The notes under the pieces are model-generated. The model made no database searches. It saw only the letters and a program-made list of their open reading frames with translations, and was not told the origin of the DNA. Source: Methanobacteriaceae archaeon (lineage in GTDB: Archaea > Methanobacteriota > Methanobacteria > Methanobacteriales > Methanobacteriaceae). Taken from it: a stretch of DNA of 64,000 nt. Below, piece by piece: positions 17,304 to 55,775 of this stretch. Position numbers and translations under genes: made by a program. The stretch is from NCBI GenBank assembly GCA_023249725.1, contig JAHFBZ010000001.1:1-64000 (forward strand), written 5' to 3'. The stretch's first letter is position 1. Each line of letters begins with the position of its first letter.

Positions 17304-18191
17304 ATGATGAAAATGCGAAATATTAAACCTTTTTTGACTGTTATCATGACATTTTTTATTGTGTGTTCAAGTTCGGGAATAGTGTTTGCCGATTCGAGTG
17401 GGTTTTTAACAGTTCAATTTAATAAACAATCGGTTAATGTTGGGGATCAGGTTCAAATAACTGTTACTGCGTACAATACTGGAACTGTGGCTTGGAACAA
17501 TGTTATTGTTTCTCTTCCTGTTCCTGATGGGCTAAAATATTTATCTCACTATACCTCAGTTTCTAAAGCTGACTATTCATCTTCTTCAGGTTCATGGGTG
17601 GTTGGAAACATGAGACATGATTCTAATGGTAAAACTAAAACTATTTACATATCCTTTGAAGTTTTACCATCTGCTGAAGGAAAAACAGTGAGAGCAAATG
17701 GTCATTTTAATAGCATCATTTTAGAAGCTACTCAAGCTCAGTTTGCCAGCCATGTGTCTTCAGCATCTCCAGACACATTAAAAGTTAATATAAATAAAAA
17801 TGAAACGGGTAATGGAACCGGTAATGGTAATGGTAATGGTAATGGTAATGGTAATGGTAATGGTAATGGTAATGGTAATGGTAATGGTAATGGTAATGGT
17901 AATGGTAATGGTAATGGTAATGGTACTGCTTCATTTTACGAAGAAATATTTGGTAATATAATCAACAGCGATAATACTACTGGCATAGGCAATAATCTGG
18001 AATACAAGGCGAATTTATTACAAAGCGGTGGTGGAGGTGAAGGCCAGGAAGGAAAAAATGCTTATGAGGTTACTAAAGAAAATACTGAACCTCAAAAAAC
18101 ACCTTCAAATTTATGGCAAGCTTTAATAGCCGGTTTAATAATTTGTGGTCTAATTGTATTTGGTTATTTCAAAGGTATACGGGGTAACTAA
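17304..18191 (+). CDS. DUF11 surface protein with (Gly-Asn)n linker and C-terminal anchor
   Basis: 295 aa. A signal peptide (about 1-29, ending GIVFA) leads into one DUF11 domain (about 35-150; VNVGDQVQITVTAYNTG), then a Gly-Asn repeat linker (about 172-207), a short acidic region and a C-terminal membrane segment (WQALIAGLIICGLIVFGYF) followed by a basic tail. It should face outward, tethered to the membrane. It lies 57 bases before an ExbB-like channel gene on the same strand, so the three are probably one operon. Several ATGs lie at the start (17304, 17307, 17313); the first is used here, with a weak ribosome site. Confidence 0.82.
   Translation: MMKMRNIKPFLTVIMTFFIVCSSSGIVFADSSGFLTVQFNKQSVNVGDQVQITVTAYNTGTVAWNNVIVSLPVPDGLKYLSHYTSVSKADYSSSSGSWVVGNMRHDSNGKTKTIYISFEVLPSAEGKTVRANGHFNSIILEATQAQFASHVSSASPDTLKVNINKNETGNGTGNGNGNGNGNGNGNGNGNGNGNGNGNGNGNGNGNGTASFYEEIFGNIINSDNTTGIGNNLEYKANLLQSGGGGEGQEGKNAYEVTKENTEPQKTPSNLWQALIAGLIICGLIVFGYFKGIRGN
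17820..17921 (+). repeat. (GGTAAT)17 hexanucleotide tandem repeat
   Basis: Seventeen perfect copies of GGTAAT lie within the surface protein gene, flanked by imperfect copies (GGAACC before, GGTACT after). They encode the Gly-Asn linker. Because the unit is six bases, slippage changes linker length without breaking the frame. Confidence 0.97.
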
Positions 18192-34508: not shown

Positions 34509-34617
34509 TGCCGGGAGCGGGATTCGAACCCGCGGCCTCACGGTATCCCAGGAAAAAGTCAGAGCACTGCTTAATACCCTATGAGCCGTGCGCTCTAACC
34601 AGCTGAGCCACCCCGGC
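34509..34617 (-). tRNA. tRNA-Met (CAT), elongator type, with intron
   Basis: Reading the minus strand, GCCGGGG pairs with TCCCGGC in the acceptor stem, the D-stem is GCTC/GAGC, the anticodon stem CACGG/CCGTG and the T-stem GCGGG/CCCGC with TTCGAAT loop. The anticodon CAT is at 34581-34583. A 35-base intron (34545-34579) interrupts the loop after the base following the anticodon, the canonical archaeal site. Mature length is 74 before CCA, which is not encoded. The stem differs from an initiator and from tRNA-Ile2. Confidence 0.93.
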
Positions 34618-45696: not shown

Positions 45697-46992
45697 TCAT
45701 GGTGCATTATTTTCCAGGATTTTACGTGCTACTTTGAGACCTAAAGCTGCGGCCAGTAATATGGTGGGCATACCTTGAGAACGAGGTGCCAGAGATAGAT
45801 CCCCCACCCACAATCCTTCAGGTAAATAGTTTGGTATCATTTCACCCACATCTGATTTTTTCAGAGGAACTGTACCTCCTAGGTGACCTCCATTGTACAT
45901 TCCCTGCACATATGGGCCTGAAACACCAGAATTCTCCATGATTTTCTGGACCTGAGCAATTGCAGCATTCATTTTCTGTTTATCATCATAGGATATTTCT
46001 TTTTGAACCTTTCCATCCTCAAATACAGATCCTTCTTCCAGATCTGCCAGTTTAACCATCATACCCACCCGGTCATTAAGGGAAACATTTTTCCAAGGCT
46101 TATGGAACCAATGGGATAATATATCTACATATGGAGATATGATATAATCTTTTTGCTGGGAGTACCATGCCATTGGAGGTTCTTTAATCATTTTTGCCCC
46201 AGAAAAGATTCCTCCGAGGGTTATTACAATATCGACCCATAAATTATCCTTAGCAGGTAGCCCAGAAGCTTTTAATATCTGAGCAGTACCAATACCTCCG
46301 GCCGAGAGAACCACCAAATCGGCCTTCAGTTTTTGTGAAGAAATTCCAGATCTTATCTCCACTCCTTTAACTTTTCCTTTTTCTAATAAAAGTTTTTTAA
46401 CAGGTGATTTTGTTTTTAAAATTGCTCCATGTTTCAGTGCATCTTCTAAGAATCTTCTGGAATCCCAACGGGAGTCACTTGCGCATCCTAACTCACAAAG
46501 TCCACAAGAAACACATTTTGCAGTATCCATGGCTTTAGGAGTTGCATGAGGATTTAAACCCATTTTTTCAGCACTTTTAAACATTTTCTGAGTTAAAGGG
46601 CGCCATCTTTGGTAGGGAAATTCTTTTACACCAATCAAATCTTCCAGTTCTTTAAATTCACTTTCCAGATCCAGACCTATCTCCTTTATACCCTGATCAG
46701 CCCGAACCATATTTCCACAGGAAAGAACGGTAGATCCTCCGGTACCTCGACCCCTGACCAGTACCAGTTCTTTGCTGGAACGGGTTGTTTCTAAATAAGG
46801 AAATAATCTAGTTATTGTTTTTTCATTTCCCATGAGCCCGATCTTTCGAAGTGGTTCACTCCAAGATAATCGGCGGGTAAATGGCTTAAAATCGCCCCCA
46901 GCTTCCAGTATAATTACTTCCATTCCATTTCGGGATAATTCGCGGGCAATAGTAGCCCCTCCAGCCCCACTACCCACAACAATAGCTCGCAT
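45697..46992 (-). CDS. GMC-like FAD oxidoreductase with cysteine cluster
   Basis: 431 aa. The N-terminal FAD site is [18 protein letters not shown] with [20 protein letters not shown] and the C-terminal [12 protein letters not shown] / [20 protein letters not shown] match GMC-type or fatty alcohol oxidase-type enzymes. A segment [11 protein letters not shown] (about residue 165) may bind an Fe-S cluster or zinc. It probably oxidises an alcohol or saturates/desaturates a lipid chain. It ends the minus-strand block that includes the reductase-adenylation fusion, which handles acyl groups. Confidence 0.75.
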
Positions 46993-47119: not shown

Positions 47120-47791
<672 letters not shown>

Positions 47792-47898: not shown

Positions 47899-50895
47899 CT
47901 AAATATCCTCTGCAGCCCCTAAATGGAGCATATTATCTGAAATCTTTCCTTCATAAAGACAATTTATAATTTCACTATATCTTTCTATGATGAATTTTCT
48001 CTTAAGCTTTAAATTAGCAGTAAGGTCGCCTTTATCAATTGAAAGATCATTTTTTAGAATTGCCCATCGCTTTATTTGTTCTGGGTGGGATAAATTGGAA
48101 TTAATGTTTATAATAGCATTATCAAGATTTTTTAGGGATATATTGGGTTTATCTAGCCATATAAGTCCTACACAATATGGTTTTTGTTCTCCTATTACCA
48201 TAGCCTCGGATGTGCCTGTTATGGACTTGATAAGGACTTCCATTTTAAGAGGGGAGATAGTTTTTCCATAAGAGTTTATTATGACTTCTTTTTTACGGCC
48301 AGTAATCACTAAACTGCCATCTTCTGTTAAATGCCCATAATCTCCAGTTAATAACCATTCATCTGAGAATAAGGAACCGCTATCCTGTTTAAAGTAGCCC
48401 TTAGTCACTTGAGGCCCTTTAACCAGTACTTCCCCATCATTTGCTATTTTAATACATGTTTGGGGTAGGGGTTTTCCCACGGTGTGTGGTTGATTATTAC
48501 CTAATCTATTGATGGTTATCAAAGGGGCTTCAGTAAGTCCATATGCATTGTAGATTTCAATTCCCAGTTTTTGAAATTTTTTAATGAGACTTTCGCTTAT
48601 AGGGGCGGAGCCCACAATTAATTGAGAACACTTATGTAGGCCGGCCTTTTTAAGGAGTAAATTTCCTAGAAAACCAGCCAAATATTTATTTAAAACGATT
48701 TTTAATCCCCATTGTTTTTTGCTTTTACAGTAAATCTTGCCCCACAAACTTTCGCTGAAAGAATCCCATAATTTTTCATAAAACCGGGGAACGGAAAAAA
48801 ACACTTTGGGTTTTACCTGGGGGAGAACATGTGCTAATTCTTGAAAATCTTCTAAAAAATAAAGTTTTAATGGGGCAGGAGCATAATATGGGGCGTAAGT
48901 GCCAAGTATCCCTTCTACCACATGATTCATAGGTAAAAATGATAAATAAGAAACTCCTTCCGTCCTATCTCTCCAGGGGGGCATGGAAGCAATGAATTCT
49001 GCCATCCAGCGTAGGTTTCCATGATTGAACATTACTCCACGGGGATCTCCTGTGGTTCCAGAAGTGTATCTAATGGTGGCCAGAGATTCAAAATCAACAG
49101 GAGCTCTTATACTGCCTTCGAGTATTTTGGCAGGGTTTTCCGAATTTTCATTCTCCATATTTTCTGTATTTTCAATATCCTTACTAGCATTTTCCAATCC
49201 AATATTCAAAAATTCCTCCCAGGAAATGATGGGATGGGCGGGATTGGATTCGCACTTTTTAGACTCTTCTTCAACAAGTTTCTGGTTTAAATTCGATTTT
49301 AGTGTAAATGAAACTGCTGGAATTTCTAAATCTAGTTCATTTATTTGTTTTAGCACGTTTTCATTTCCTAACAGGAGCAATTTTGATGAACTATCTTTTA
49401 TCAGGTCTTTTATTTCATTTAATGGACTAGTATAATATAATGGAACACTTATTGCCCCTAAAAGCCCTACCGCCACATCTAAAATAAAATAACGGGTGCT
49501 ATTGAATCCTAAGATGGCTACTCGATCTTGTGGTTTAATACCTAACTTTTGTAAAGCATTAGCGGCCATAATAATTTTTTTTCTTATATCTGGACCTGAT
49601 TGTTTGATTAACTGTCCATTAACAATATCAAAGCATTCTACAGGAAAACTTCTGCTTTTAAGGCGGTAAGTTATTTGTTCATGAACGGTACGTTCTGAGC
49701 GATGGAAGAATCCCATGTAAACGGAGTATTTTAGAATATTATCTATAAAATTTTTCCATTGGTGAGGATAAGGTCCTGAGAGTTGCTCAGTATTTTCCCG
49801 ACTAAAACGTCGATTTTCCTGTATGTATGGTGCCAGTATTCCTAATACTGATTTATCGAACCCTTCAGCACTTTTAGACTTTTTAATGTCTTTAAATACA
49901 AATTTAAGGATTTTTTCAGTCCATTGTTGAGGTAGTGGTAAAAATAAAGGCCGAGGAAGATTAATTCCTAAATTAGTAGATGCCCACTTTCGAGTATATT
50001 CTATCAGTTCCCTTACACTAGGTAAAACTTCGTCAGGAGCGGTTAAATGGAAGGTTAAATTCTGAGCTTTATCATTAAATGTTAAATCTACTACTGATTG
50101 GCCAATGTAGTCTACTGGGACCAGGTTAATCTTACTGGAGGGAGAAATAGGTAAAAATCTTAATTTACCAGTTAAATAAAGTCTAAGGGGAACATAAACG
50201 GTATTAAAAGTTTTTATCTGTCCCGTTTTAGAATCTCCCACCACCATTCCTGGTCGGAATATAGAAAAAGGAATTTGGGATTTTTTTACTTCCATCTCTG
50301 CTTCAAATTTACTTTTTTCATAGTTACTGGAAAAACCTTTGTAGGAATCCAAATAACTTTCTAAAATATCTCCTTCACGCTTTCCAGCCACATAAGCGGT
50401 GGATAAAAATGAAAATCTTTCTAAACCATGATTTTCATCAACTTTTCTGGCTAGATGCAGAACATTTTTAGTACCATTCACATTAGTCTTTCTGAGTTCA
50501 TTTAATGGCCCATTAAGTCTTAAATCAGCTACAGTATGTATAATATGGCTTATATTGTGAACCAGCATATTATACTGAGAATCCTTCAGACCAAGATTTT
50601 TTTCAGTGACATTTCCATTCAATATCTCTATCTTCCCGTCACTTAAGCTTTCAATAAGATCAGGATACTCCCACCATGCTCTTTTTAGCCGTATTTTAGC
50701 ATCAAAATCATTTTTCCCCCTTATCATTGCTAAAATTTGTACATCTTTTCGTTGGATTAATTCTTGAGCAATATATGTCCCAATAAAACCATTAGCTCCT
50801 GTAAGAAGGACTATTAATTTTTTCACAGGTGTTTTCTGGATAAATGGTGTGGAAATGGATTGATTTTTAGTAGAATTTTTGATAAGGGAGTTCAT
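47899..50895 (-). CDS. Acyl reductase-adenylation fusion protein (SDR + AMP-ligase)
   Basis: 998 aa, two enzymes on one chain. Residues about 25-390 are an extended SDR of the thioester-reductase/male-sterility type: TGANGFIG (32-39) binds NAD(P), LSTAYVAG (164-171) and Tyr192/Lys196 (YEKSK) form the catalytic set. Residues about 400-985 are an acyl-adenylate synthetase: RYTSGTTGDPRGVM (about 600), YGLTEAP, TGDYGHL and GRKKEVIINSYGKTISP. No phosphopantetheine carrier domain is visible. Carboxylic acid reductases have adenylation-carrier-reductase order, so this is reversed and carrier-less. It could turn an acid to acyl-CoA and then to aldehyde. Its start overlaps the pyruvyl transferase stop (ATGA). 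Confidence 0.88.
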   Translation of the reverse strand: MNSLIKNSTKNQSISTPFIQKTPVKKLIVLLTGANGFIGTYIAQELIQRKDVQILAMIRGKNDFDAKIRLKRAWWEYPDLIESLSDGKIEILNGNVTEKNLGLKDSQYNMLVHNISHIIHTVADLRLNGPLNELRKTNVNGTKNVLHLARKVDENHGLERFSFLSTAYVAGKREGDILESYLDSYKGFSSNYEKSKFEAEMEVKKSQIPFSIFRPGMVVGDSKTGQIKTFNTVYVPLRLYLTGKLRFLPISPSSKINLVPVDYIGQSVVDLTFNDKAQNLTFHLTAPDEVLPSVRELIEYTRKWASTNLGINLPRPLFLPLPQQWTEKILKFVFKDIKKSKSAEGFDKSVLGILAPYIQENRRFSRENTEQLSGPYPHQWKNFIDNILKYSVYMGFFHRSERTVHEQITYRLKSRSFPVECFDIVNGQLIKQSGPDIRKKIIMAANALQKLGIKPQDRVAILGFNSTRYFILDVAVGLLGAISVPLYYTSPLNEIKDLIKDSSSKLLLLGNENVLKQINELDLEIPAVSFTLKSNLNQKLVEEESKKCESNPAHPIISWEEFLNIGLENASKDIENTENMENENSENPAKILEGSIRAPVDFESLATIRYTSGTTGDPRGVMFNHGNLRWMAEFIASMPPWRDRTEGVSYLSFLPMNHVVEGILGTYAPYYAPAPLKLYFLEDFQELAHVLPQVKPKVFFSVPRFYEKLWDSFSESLWGKIYCKSKKQWGLKIVLNKYLAGFLGNLLLKKAGLHKCSQLIVGSAPISESLIKKFQKLGIEIYNAYGLTEAPLITINRLGNNQPHTVGKPLPQTCIKIANDGEVLVKGPQVTKGYFKQDSGSLFSDEWLLTGDYGHLTEDGSLVITGRKKEVIINSYGKTISPLKMEVLIKSITGTSEAMVIGEQKPYCVGLIWLDKPNISLKNLDNAIININSNLSHPEQIKRWAILKNDLSIDKGDLTANLKLKRKFIIERYSEIINCLYEGKISDNMLHLGAAEDI

Positions 50896-52190
50896 AGTGT
50901 GCCCGCCCGGTTTAAAGATATTTTAAGGAACTCTTTTAGCAAATTTTTATTTTTCTGTGCTCTTTTTAATTGATCATCATAACCTATTTTTAAAGCATTT
51001 TGTATGGATTCTGGTGATTTTAAAAGCTCTTCCGCTTTATTTCTAACTTTTTGCCATAAATCCGGGTCATCATAATCTATAAAGTAGTCTTCATAGATTC
51101 CTACTTCTTTATAAAGATTTTTTAACCGAGTATCATGTCCGATAGCAACTTGTGGGACTTTTTCACTCAAAGATAAAACTGAGGCATGATAACGGGAAGT
51201 AAGAAGAAAATTTAGGTTTCTCAGCAGTACCGTCATTTCTGAGGCGTTGTATTTATTAGAGGAGAATATTCTGGCTTTTTCAGGATACTGCATTTTTTCC
51301 AAAATTTTCCGGGCCAGTGGCTCATCCAGGTCCTCCATACATATCAATGCTATATTCTGCTGGTATTTTTGGATAAAATGGTCGGCCATTTGGGCCCAGG
51401 AATTTGCTAGTGCTTCGCTTTGATGGTCCCTTTCAGGGGAACGGGAGAAATAATAAGGCCATTTATACTGGTCTTCAGACCTCCCCCAGGGCCGAATTAC
51501 CACTGGCCACAGGTAAAAATCCACCACAGAAAGTCCCACCAAGTTATTTTCGGCTTCAAGCCAAGTTTCTTTTAGAAAATTGTAATTTTCGGGATTTAAT
51601 TTCAATTCAAATGCACAATCGGCAGTAACTTCTATAGGTGCAGTCACACCTGTAGATTTAAGAATTTCCCGAGATTTGTAGTTCCGGGTGATTATTAAAT
51701 CAGTTTTACTGGCTTCTCTTTTAACTAATCGTTTATTGAGGGAAGATAATTTTCCGGCATCAACGGCATAGGCCAGTGACGACTTTTTAAAATCATTGGC
51801 ACATTTAGTGGCCCATAAAAAGGCCCAAAGAAGAGCGGAAGTCCAGGTATCCATGTAACAACTACCTTCTACTAAAATTACAATATCATGTTCTTTAACC
51901 AGCTTGCGCATGGTGAAAAAGTAAATGGAAGGCAAAGGAACAATTTTAATGTTTTCAGTTTCTTTTAGATACCTTCGGAGATTTTCTTGATTGAGCGTGG
52001 GCACGGTAATCTCTACATTTTCCCCTAAAATTTCCTTTAAATCAGCTATAATTGCATGAAGTCTGGCTTCAGAGCCAGTATTATTGGCCCCATTATATCC
52101 TACTAAAAGTATTTTGACTTTTTTTCCACTTAAATCGTCATTATTTTGATTTATTGGAATTTCAGGTGATTTTGAAGAATTTTTTAGCAT
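50892..52190 (-). CDS. Polysaccharide pyruvyl transferase family protein
   Basis: 432 aa. KVKILLVGYNGANNTGSEARLHAIIADL and LLTSRYHASVLSLSEKVPQVAIGHDTRLKNLYKEVG are typical of the CsaB-like family that moves pyruvate from phosphoenolpyruvate onto a glycan as a ketal. Many methanogens have several members acting on surface glycans. AGGAGA precedes the ATG. It overlaps the reductase-adenylation fusion by four bases, which is strong evidence of co-translation and perhaps a joint pathway. Confidence 0.85.
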   Translation of the reverse strand: MLKNSSKSPEIPINQNNDDLSGKKVKILLVGYNGANNTGSEARLHAIIADLKEILGENVEITVPTLNQENLRRYLKETENIKIVPLPSIYFFTMRKLVKEHDIVILVEGSCYMDTWTSALLWAFLWATKCANDFKKSSLAYAVDAGKLSSLNKRLVKREASKTDLIITRNYKSREILKSTGVTAPIEVTADCAFELKLNPENYNFLKETWLEAENNLVGLSVVDFYLWPVVIRPWGRSEDQYKWPYYFSRSPERDHQSEALANSWAQMADHFIQKYQQNIALICMEDLDEPLARKILEKMQYPEKARIFSSNKYNASEMTVLLRNLNFLLTSRYHASVLSLSEKVPQVAIGHDTRLKNLYKEVGIYEDYFIDYDDPDLWQKVRNKAEELLKSPESIQNALKIGYDDQLKRAQKNKNLLKEFLKISLNRAGTL

Positions 52191-52357: not shown

Positions 52358-53134
52358 TCAATTATCCGCAGGCCCCACGTCTCTCATTAAAAATAAAACT
52401 ATTTTCATCATTATGGTGACGCCAATTCTTTTAAAAGGACTTATTTTAACCGGATAAAAATAATTGTCTTTGTTTTGGTAAAATTCATGATCTGCTGGAA
52501 AGTAGTCTCCCATGCTAGATGTAAATTTCATAAAACGGAAGTGAATGTACTCGGTTAATGTAGGGCGGGCCATCCCACCTTTTTCCAGGCTTTTATAAAA
52601 TTCATGAGCTGATTTTTCAATATTTTGCTGATTTTTCTTTTTCAAAGCTTCACTCATAGTCCATGGTGGAATAATAACTCCTAACTTATTCATTTTCCCG
52701 AAACCCCATATATGCAATGTTTCCAGATATTTTAGAGTTTCATTCATACCTGAACCGGCTGTGGTACAAATTGCCAGTGCTCTGTGCCTGAAGAAGACGG
52801 GCCGGTGAAAAATATAGGCAAAACGGTCAATGAAATTTTTCATTAAGCCACTAATCATTTGACAGTACACGGGTGATGCAAATATCACCCCATCTGCTTC
52901 TAAAATTCTCTTTTCAATATCTTCGCGGTCATCTTTTAAGGGACAAAATTCTTCTCCGCGACTCACGCAGTTAAAACAACCTCTACACATTTCCAGATGA
53001 GCATCTTTTAAAAAGAGATATTCAAATTTAATATCACCCAGTTTCTGCATTTCTTTTTCCAGTTCTTGAGTGGCCTGATAGGTATTTCCTCTTTTTCTAG
53101 GACTCCCCATTATTGCTAATACTTTCATTTTCAT
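52358..53134 (-). CDS. Flavodoxin-fold NADPH-dependent FMN reductase-like protein
   Basis: 258 aa. VLAIMGSPRKRGNT is the FMN phosphate loop; CRGCFNCVSRGEEFCPLKDD and FASPVYCQMISGLMKNFIDRFAY are typical of archaeal iron-sulfur flavoproteins and FMN reductases, with the compact cysteine set CxxCxxC...C. The extra C-terminal region is basic and hydrophobic. I use the ATG at 53134, after AGTGATT; the GTG at 53143 overlaps that site. Partner and substrate are unknown; it lies between an Fe-S protein and the pyruvyl transferase. Confidence 0.75.
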   Translation of the reverse strand: MKMKVLAIMGSPRKRGNTYQATQELEKEMQKLGDIKFEYLFLKDAHLEMCRGCFNCVSRGEEFCPLKDDREDIEKRILEADGVIFASPVYCQMISGLMKNFIDRFAYIFHRPVFFRHRALAICTTAGSGMNETLKYLETLHIWGFGKMNKLGVIIPPWTMSEALKKKNQQNIEKSAHEFYKSLEKGGMARPTLTEYIHFRFMKFTSSMGDYFPADHEFYQNKDNYFYPVKISPFKRIGVTIMMKIVLFLMRDVGPADN

Positions 53135-53291
53135 GTGAATCACTTTTTAGTATTAATCATGTTTAATAATAAATTTTTTAAATTTGATTATGGTTATTAT
53201 CTGGGACTAAATTTTTATTTAAATTTAGACATAGACTTCAAGTGTAAAAAAATACACTAATTGTGAATTTTAATTAAAATATTTTATAAAT

Positions 53292-54194
53292 TTAGGAATG
53301 GAAATTATTTTCTATTTTCTGATATCCTAATCGGTTAAAACTACATTCTTTCATACAGATGGTACATCCATGACATAAATCAGTAATTATTTTTGTTTTT
53401 AATCCTTGAGGAGTATTTTTTTCTACAATAGCTTGGTTGGGGCATTTTTTTATGCATTTACCACAACTAACACAAAATTCACTAATCCACAGATGGGCAT
53501 CAGATGAGGTGTCTGGTAGGTTTTCTGCACTTATAAATATTGCAGATATTCTTTGTCTAGGCCCTAATTCGGGAGTTATTAGTAATCCATGTCTTCCAAT
53601 ATTTCCCAGTCCGGCTTTTTTTGCTAATTTGGTGTATACTACTAATCCTCCTGCTGGATGACTGGGGTGTGATGAAAAACCATTTTTTCGCAGATACTGG
53701 GCCAGGAGGTTGGTTTTTTTACCTAATTCATCATAGGTTAAGATTCCATCTTCTTGGGTTTGGGGGCTGGGGGCCATATTTACGGCATTTTCATCCATTT
53801 CCATGGTCAATACAATGGTTTTTTTAAATAAAATGGATCTATCTTGGAATATTATGTCCGAAGGAACATCCACATATCCAATTTTATTTATTCCCAGTGA
53901 ACTGGCATATTTTTCAAATTCATCCTTAAATTCTGAATCCATGTGCATTTTGGGATTTTCCGGATTTTCATCTAATGATTTAATGGTTTTTTCTATGTTT
54001 TTAGCAATGGAAAGTTGCTTAGGGAGAGTTTTTAATGTAATTTTGAGCTTGTCAGGCATTTTCTTTTCAGGTGAATTACTGGAAGCTGAAACTGCTCCAG
54101 GAGCTTTATTTAAGCTCATTTCCAATTTATTTATTTTATTAAGTCGATAATCTGCATATTTTGATTTTAAACTATCTATTTTATCTAATATCAT
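53292..54194 (-). CDS. 4Fe-4S protein of the epoxyqueuosine reductase/reductive dehalogenase-like type
   Basis: 300 aa. The C-terminal part has two ferredoxin motifs, CVSCGKCIKKCPNQA and CHGCTICMKECSF. The middle contains GLGNIGRHGLLITPELGPRQRISAIF, shared with QueG and reductive dehalogenase-type proteins that bind corrinoid. No signal is seen. I start at the ATG at 54194 (after AGGGTG); an in-frame GTG at 54218 also exists. The N-terminal ~90 residues are charged and unlike QueG. It is likely a redox protein in the TetR-headed block. Confidence 0.7.
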   Translation of the reverse strand: MILDKIDSLKSKYADYRLNKINKLEMSLNKAPGAVSASSNSPEKKMPDKLKITLKTLPKQLSIAKNIEKTIKSLDENPENPKMHMDSEFKDEFEKYASSLGINKIGYVDVPSDIIFQDRSILFKKTIVLTMEMDENAVNMAPSPQTQEDGILTYDELGKKTNLLAQYLRKNGFSSHPSHPAGGLVVYTKLAKKAGLGNIGRHGLLITPELGPRQRISAIFISAENLPDTSSDAHLWISEFCVSCGKCIKKCPNQAIVEKNTPQGLKTKIITDLCHGCTICMKECSFNRLGYQKIENNFHS

Positions 54195-54266
54195 TTTTGA
54201 CACCCTTGGTCTATTCACAATGCTTATTCAAACTAATCTATTCATTATTATTCTTTTTCAACTAAC

Positions 54267-55119: not shown

Positions 55120-55749
55120 TTATTCGATTTTAACACTGTTTAGAATGAATTGCATGTGTTCTTCCATATCATCGAACATTTCGCGCAGAAATTTCTCTGG
55201 TTCGTCAGGGTACTTCAGCACGAAATTTTCAATTAAGAGGTAGATGGCATAGCTAAAATATTCTCGGGCCAATCTTTCGGGATCTACCGGTTTTATGATA
55301 TTTTTTTCTATCATTGCTGTGAATATCTGGGTCCAGGCCTGGATTGGTGTTTCTATTAATTCTTTTAAAAAGAATTCTTTGATTTTGGAGTTGTGGTACA
55401 TTTCAATTAGTAATAATCTCCATATTTTAATCATTTTTGGGTCGTGCATGCGTTCTTCAAACATCTTGGACCCGGCTTGGTAGAACATCTCCGGACTTTG
55501 ATCCAGGAGTATTTCCATTTGTTCTTCAGGAATGCCGGTTTCATCCATTTCTTTTATAAAATAATCAAGTATAGTGTCTAAGATAGCTTCTTTACTGGAG
55601 TAATGGTTGTAAATTGAGCTTTCTCTTATTCCCACTCCCCGACCTATTTCTCGGATGGAAACGGCGTCGAATCCTTTTTCTGAGAAAAGATCGATGGAAA
55701 CATCGAATATTTTTTCCTTGGTTGGTTTGCTTGATTTTTGTGATGTCAT
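55120..55749 (-). CDS. TetR-family transcriptional regulator
   Basis: 209 aa. The N-terminal helix-turn-helix (about 10-55, KIFDVSIDLFSEKGFDAVSIREIGRGVGIRESSIYNHYSSKEAIL) is classic TetR; the rest is a helical ligand-binding domain. I start at ATG 55749, after AGGTGA; a GTG at 55758 overlaps that site. Its promoter region holds two copies of a palindromic motif. It heads the minus-strand accessory block and is the likely local repressor. Confidence 0.93.
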   Translation of the reverse strand: MTSQKSSKPTKEKIFDVSIDLFSEKGFDAVSIREIGRGVGIRESSIYNHYSSKEAILDTILDYFIKEMDETGIPEEQMEILLDQSPEMFYQAGSKMFEERMHDPKMIKIWRLLLIEMYHNSKIKEFFLKELIETPIQAWTQIFTAMIEKNIIKPVDPERLAREYFSYAIYLLIENFVLKYPDEPEKFLREMFDDMEEHMQFILNSVKIE

Positions 55750-55775
55750 AATTTTCACCTGTAAATTTATTTACT

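Follow-up and report, generated by a model that had tools for sequence, protein, structure and literature searches.

Closest described systems

Carboxylic acid reductases (CARs) are defined by an A-T-R domain order, a PP-binding carrier domain and activation by a PPTase. Catalytic roles of CAR residues that are discussed below have been described (PMC5826065, PMC10168641), and a CAR R domain reduces only thioesters that contain the N-acetylcysteamine portion of the pantetheine arm (PMC10168641). In Myxococcus, a different arrangement, FAR-ACS-ACP-acyltransferase, is found in the protein ElbD (PMC9131029). FAALs have been reported across forms of life except archaea (PMC8460268). A literature search of open papers found none that joins the cassette genes described here or that describes a CAR from a methanogen, and the cassette is apparently undescribed.

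The window is the whole 64,000-nucleotide stretch of DNA that was analyzed (contig JAHFBZ010000001.1 of a Methanobacteriaceae archaeon). It contains a gene in which a reductase domain is fused in front of an adenylation domain. This gene and three of its neighbors form a cassette that is conserved in archaea and bacteria.

Domain organization of the fusion protein

The fusion gene (47899-50895, minus strand) is one intact, uninterrupted open reading frame (ORF) of 998 codons that begins with ATG. In the 998-residue product, an NAD(P)H thioester/acyl-CoA reductase domain (residues ~27-400; 49696-50817, minus strand, with boundaries from the AF2 model) is followed by an ANL adenylation/acyl-CoA synthetase domain (residues ~404-998; 47902-49686, minus strand). 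In the AlphaFold model (14-row alignment; mean pLDDT 78, pTM 0.79), the reductase has its last helix at residues 380-393 and the adenylation domain its first helix at residues 404-412. The interdomain linker between them is ~10 residues long (residues ~394-404; 49684-49716, minus strand). The low-confidence parts of the model are residues 1-26, 335-346, 534-600 and 837-840 and the last residues.

The Pfam profiles NAD_binding_4 (residues 31-265, 182 bits), AMP-binding (residues 443-835, 196 bits) and AMP-binding_C_3 (residues 870-982) match the fusion in this order. Among NCBIfam models, the thioester reductase TIGR01746 covers residues 29-396 with 173 bits, the best family is the long-chain acyl-CoA ligase PRK06187, and the carboxylic acid reductase model scores 184 bits; all three matches are below their curated cut-offs. 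The best PDB sequence matches are carboxylic acid reductases (5mso for the A part and 5msc for the R part), and the top fold matches of the modeled adenylation domain are CAR A domains. The R-A order is kept in archaeal and bacterial orthologues, so it is not the product of a chance or assembly fusion. The intact ORF, the Pfam and NCBIfam matches and the conserved order in orthologues bear out the reductase-first, adenylation-second arrangement given in an earlier note on this DNA. A split or frameshifted CAR is ruled out by the intact ORF and the conserved domain order.

The reductase domain contains a TGANGFIG NADP motif (residues 32-39), S165/T166 and the pair Y192-x3-K196. The adenylation domain contains TSGTTG (residues 611-616), a PMNH motif with H658, residues E789, D852 and R867, and an A10-type lysine (K963); the ANL motifs are accompanied by a C-terminal lid with the A10 lysine. 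Residues S165, T166, Y192 and K196 of the reductase and T614/T615, H658, E789, D852, R867 and K963 of the adenylation domain are invariant across 14 orthologues. In an alignment with CAR, the essential CAR residues, including the PMNH histidine (H658) and the YxxxK pair, have counterparts in the fusion. Several of these residues have well-known roles throughout the ANL and SDR families. Judged by these alignments, the full set of expected catalytic residues is kept.

SDR and ANL domains are also paired in other lipid pathways. The fusion might condense or otherwise modify the acyl chain, comparable to the OleC/OleD pair (beta-lactone synthetase, ketone reductase) of olefin synthesis, and its SDR domain would not reduce a thioester. 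This role is unlikely. The 3Beta_HSD profile does match the SDR part of the fusion (41 bits), but NAD_binding_4 and TIGR01746 score far above it. The host genome has no ketosynthase match (PF00109), and the A10-type lysine and the CAR-like PMNH motif are retained. Thioester reduction is the preferred reading of the N-terminal domain. A LuxC-type reductase was also considered and rejected, as the sole LuxC-like match of the host is elsewhere, on contig C91.

Search for a carrier domain or carrier partner

The orthologue set contains 13 sequences that are 43-93% identical to the window fusion, or 14 sequences with the window fusion included. PP-binding matches are absent from all 14 (Pfam, E<=1). 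As a control, the same Pfam library detects PP-binding between the two domains of a true CAR (L061), in which an LGGDSL motif is visible. The earlier note had described the fusion as carrier-free and had named residues 385-405 and the C-terminus as the places where a carrier might be found. Residues 385-405 comprise only the C-terminal part of the last reductase helix, the linker and the start of the first adenylation helix, and the modeled linker is too short to be a carrier domain. At the C-terminus, the fusion ends 35 residues past the catalytic K963, and no carrier is found there. The low-confidence stretches at residues 1-26 and 534-600 are mostly absent from the orthologues in the 14-sequence alignment, which argues against a carrier hidden in the low-confidence parts. 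The Pfam search of the 14 orthologues, the model and a genome-wide PP-binding search together rule out a hidden carrier, and the description in the earlier note holds.

Neither PP-binding nor PPTase (PF01648) matches are present in the host genome, which is 94% complete (E<=1). With a threshold of E<=0.01 for non-host genomes, both are absent from 9 of the 16 fusion-bearing genomes (the host G000, G001, G014, G015, G049, G053, G172, G175 and G178). One of these, G049, is a closed single contig that is 99% complete. PF01648 matches are absent from nine non-host fusion genomes at E<=0.01, although divergent PPTases could escape this search. G013 contains PP-binding domains and no PPTase match, so the PPTase search is imperfect. 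G002 contains both NRPS-like carriers and a PPTase, on another contig. Carriers are also present in the bacterial and Methanomassiliicoccus fusion hosts. Because the fusion has no carrier domain and neither a carrier nor a PPTase is detected in the host and eight other genomes, the classic carboxylic acid reductase mechanism is very unlikely.

NRPS-like ORFs of ~2600 aa, with two carrier domains each, occur in G002 (contig C8, 48392-51568) and G013 (contig C235, 10182-13361). A PPTase is nearby in G002 only.

A carrier could also act in trans. The adenylation domain would load a separate carrier and the reductase domain would unload it, as in a split CAR or NRPS-like system. Near relatives of both fusion domains use carriers, and PP-binding domains occur in some hosts (G002, G013, Methanomassiliicoccus and the bacteria), but none is detected in the nine genomes listed above, including the closed genome, and the cassette holds no carrier gene. 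A carrier in trans is highly improbable.

Gene neighborhood

The conserved gene order consists of a PF04230 (CsaB-like) protein, the fusion, a PF14196 protein and a GMC oxidoreductase, all on the minus strand in the window. The CsaB-like PS_pyruv_trans (PF04230) protein (432 aa; 50892-52190) has a 4-base overlap with the start of the fusion, and its NCBIfam score for CsaB is 96, far below the cut-off of 213. The PF14196 protein (223 aa) is encoded at 47120-47791 and the GMC-type flavoprotein oxidoreductase (431 aa) at 45697-46992. Four cysteines of the GMC protein are invariant and form a ferredoxin-like CxxCxxCxxxC pattern (C160-xx-C163-xx-C166-xxx-C170). Profile searches with the CsaB-like and GMC proteins found no solved structure.

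Three further minus-strand genes are present upstream of the cassette. These encode an FMN_red/flavodoxin-fold protein (52358-53143), a 4Fe-4S protein that weakly resembles reductive dehalogenases (53292-54218; 74 bits, cut-off 160) and a TetR-family regulator, whose gene is the first of the run (55120-55758). The position of the 4Fe-4S protein is conserved in the same genus only (L013 and L014), and the regulator is in the same place in these two loci. In L013, L014, L087 and L088, too, flavin proteins are encoded upstream of the cassette. Elsewhere in the window, a 6-base repeat (GGTAAT, ~20 copies, 17808-17925) lies inside a 295-aa ORF (17304-18191), and a 109-base tRNA that presumably contains an intron (34509-34617, minus strand) was found by Rfam and missed by ARAGORN.

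PF14196 matches 9 of the 12 members of the small partner protein. In the AF2 model of this protein (pLDDT 85.6), the predicted fold resembles TRAPPC3/Bet3 as well as the V4R domains with which MopR and PoxR sense and bind phenol. The top Foldseek matches are TRAPPC3, with palmitate-bound 6aq3 as the best, and MopR/PoxR (E 1e-4 to 3e-3), with moderate query TM-scores of about 0.45-0.47. The match of its sequence profile to 7yh2 is weak (E 0.13). It has been proposed that hydrophobic ligands are bound by V4R domains (PMC2253512), and the small protein likely binds a hydrophobic ligand or intermediate.

In another reading, the small protein itself carries the acyl group, bound to a cysteine as palmitate is bound to TRAPPC3. 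Its gene adjoins the fusion in complete cassettes and its best fold match is covalently palmitate-bound, but with a query TM-score of about 0.47 this is a moderate match, and the fusion is also found without the partner, in G204. Three cysteines (C154, C165 and C198) are invariant, but they lie in the C-terminal half, presumably the region where V4R sensor domains place their metal site. The helices that correspond to the acylation site of Bet3 contain no conserved cysteine. A role as acyl carrier is extremely doubtful, and ligand binding is the preferred role of the small protein.

An (AAT)13 microsatellite (47131-47170) encodes the C-terminal poly-Asn tail of the PF14196 protein. The tail has ~12 Asn in the sister genome G002 and is absent in G001, so its length varies within the genus.

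Distribution of the fusion and the cassette

In profile searches, the cassette order is recovered in the Methanobacteriales, the Methanomassiliicoccales and further members of the same class, the Bathyarchaeota, the Chloroflexota, the Spirochaetota and the Lachnospirales. The cassette profiles were partly built from the same loci, so independent support for the cassette comes from L084, L085 and L087-L090. The small gene was not picked up in L087 and L025. The first gene was not picked up in L029, where the small gene is visible in other searches. L025, L027 and L030 are short contigs.

The distribution of the fusion is patchy. Within the home phylum, 8 of 152 genomes have it, and in three other groups it is present in 6 of 300, 2 of 297 (full length) and 4 of 392 genomes. 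In the fusion tree, one Chloroflexota and one Spirochaetota member fall among the archaeal ones, with support of 95/98 for the pair and 89/95 for the mixed group. The identities of the other three cassette proteins track those of the fusion pairwise (r 0.85-0.90, without correction for shared ancestry). The mixing in the tree and the correlated identities fit a transfer of the cassette as a unit. The cassette would mark a patchily inherited pathway that is common to unrelated anaerobes.

Two genomes, G204 and G193, contain the fusion without the cassette. In G204, from the Methanomassiliicoccus class, the stand-alone fusion (within region 3984-12176 of L083) is flanked on one side by genes for an aldehyde:ferredoxin oxidoreductase and its Fe-S partner and on the other by those for a pair of indolepyruvate-type oxidoreductase proteins, and a Ras-like GTPase is nearby.

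Two other sources of R-A fusions were rejected. Viral contigs gave three weak adenylation-domain matches only, which speaks against a virus-borne origin, and the two-piece Sphingobium matches from plasmids belong to an ordinary A-T-R CAR.

Proposed reaction and substrate

The fusion is probably a carrier-free bifunctional carboxylic acid reductase that converts an acid to an acyl-CoA and then to an aldehyde by way of free CoA. The C-terminal domain would form an acyl-adenylate from acid and ATP and transfer the acyl group to free CoA. Relatives of the N-terminal SDR domain hold a carrier by its phosphopantetheine arm. The SDR domain would take this arm when it is borne by CoA and use NADPH to reduce the acyl-CoA to an aldehyde and perhaps further to an alcohol. 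The acyl-CoA would be kept between the two neighboring sites. CoA bears the acylcysteamine part that is recognized by the CAR R domain, and loss of the carrier would therefore require no new chemistry. The earlier note had reasoned that the acyl intermediate must leave as a CoA thioester or be handed on directly, and the lack of detected carrier domains and PPTases in the host and in the closed genome G049 supports this. CoA as acceptor, NADPH as donor and the aldehyde as product are inferred.

The fusion would work in a four-gene pathway with the CsaB-like protein, the Bet3/V4R-like small protein and the GMC flavoenzyme, the last of which would act on an alcohol or aldehyde group. The conserved cassette counts in favor of a working pathway. 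The aldehyde:ferredoxin oxidoreductase gene beside the fusion in G204 counts in favor of the proposed reaction, and the finding that the Methanobacteriales fusion hosts have no such oxidoreductase counts against it. The GMC family normally oxidizes alcohols, which is the opposite direction to acid reduction and counts against the proposal. A tentative reading, somewhat short of even chances, is that the cassette encodes an undescribed anaerobic biosynthetic or salvage pathway that has spread between archaea and bacteria. The carrier-free acid reductase would make an acyl aldehyde, and the other three proteins would convert it to a new hydrophobic metabolite or surface modification.

The earlier note found the substrate puzzling in an archaeon. 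The puzzle stands for the host, in which neither a ketosynthase (PF00109) nor an ACP (PP-binding search) is found, so that an endogenous fatty acid from a bacterial-type synthase is unlikely. The fusion is not an archaeal oddity, as the cassette is also present in three bacterial groups. Weak partial PF00109 matches (27-31 bits) occur in G049, G053 and G172 and look like thiolase-type proteins. Candidate substrates include isoprenoid and other non-fatty acids as well as fatty or aromatic acids obtained by scavenging.

If the proposal is correct, the fusion is a natural carboxylic acid reductase that runs on ATP, CoA and NADPH only, without phosphopantetheinylation, which is relevant to biocatalysis. 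Hydrogenotrophic methanogens would gain a route from acid to aldehyde that is independent of tungsten aldehyde oxidoreductase.

Comparison with known systems

The N-terminal domain of the fusion resembles the fatty acyl-CoA reductases (FAR/NAD_binding_4) in fold, motifs and predicted use of acyl-CoA. Unlike these enzymes, it is joined to its own acyl-activating enzyme and has no FAR_C match. The C-terminal domain belongs to the family of the long-chain acyl-CoA synthetases (PRK06187, FadD11) and shares their LTxxxKxKR-type A10 motif, but it sits behind a reductase and its curated scores are far under the cut-off.

Both domains are homologous to those of CAR types I-V (e.g., Nocardia and Segniliparus), the catalytic residues are conserved and the same overall reaction is predicted. 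In contrast to these CARs, the fusion has the reverse domain order, no carrier domain and a predicted independence of phosphopantetheinylation. The contrast with the A-T-R order that was drawn in the earlier note is correct, but a reductase-first order has a precedent in Myxococcus (PMC9131029).

This precedent is ElbD of Myxococcus xanthus ether-lipid biosynthesis, which is likened to the fusion by published architecture and not by sequence. ElbD, too, starts with a FAR1/thioester-reductase-like domain and continues with an acyl-CoA synthetase domain, and it is proposed to yield an aldehyde from an acyl thioester (PMC9131029). ElbD adds an ACP and an AGPAT-like acyltransferase, whereas the fusion has no Pfam match to either and ends shortly after K963. 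ElbD serves fatty-acid-based ether lipids, and its operon partners (epimerase/dehydratase-type proteins and a HAD phosphohydrolase) differ from the cassette genes. The fusion carries the catalytic residues of CARs but is outside their definition in domain order and carrier, and it has the R-A order of ElbD without the ACP and the acyltransferase.
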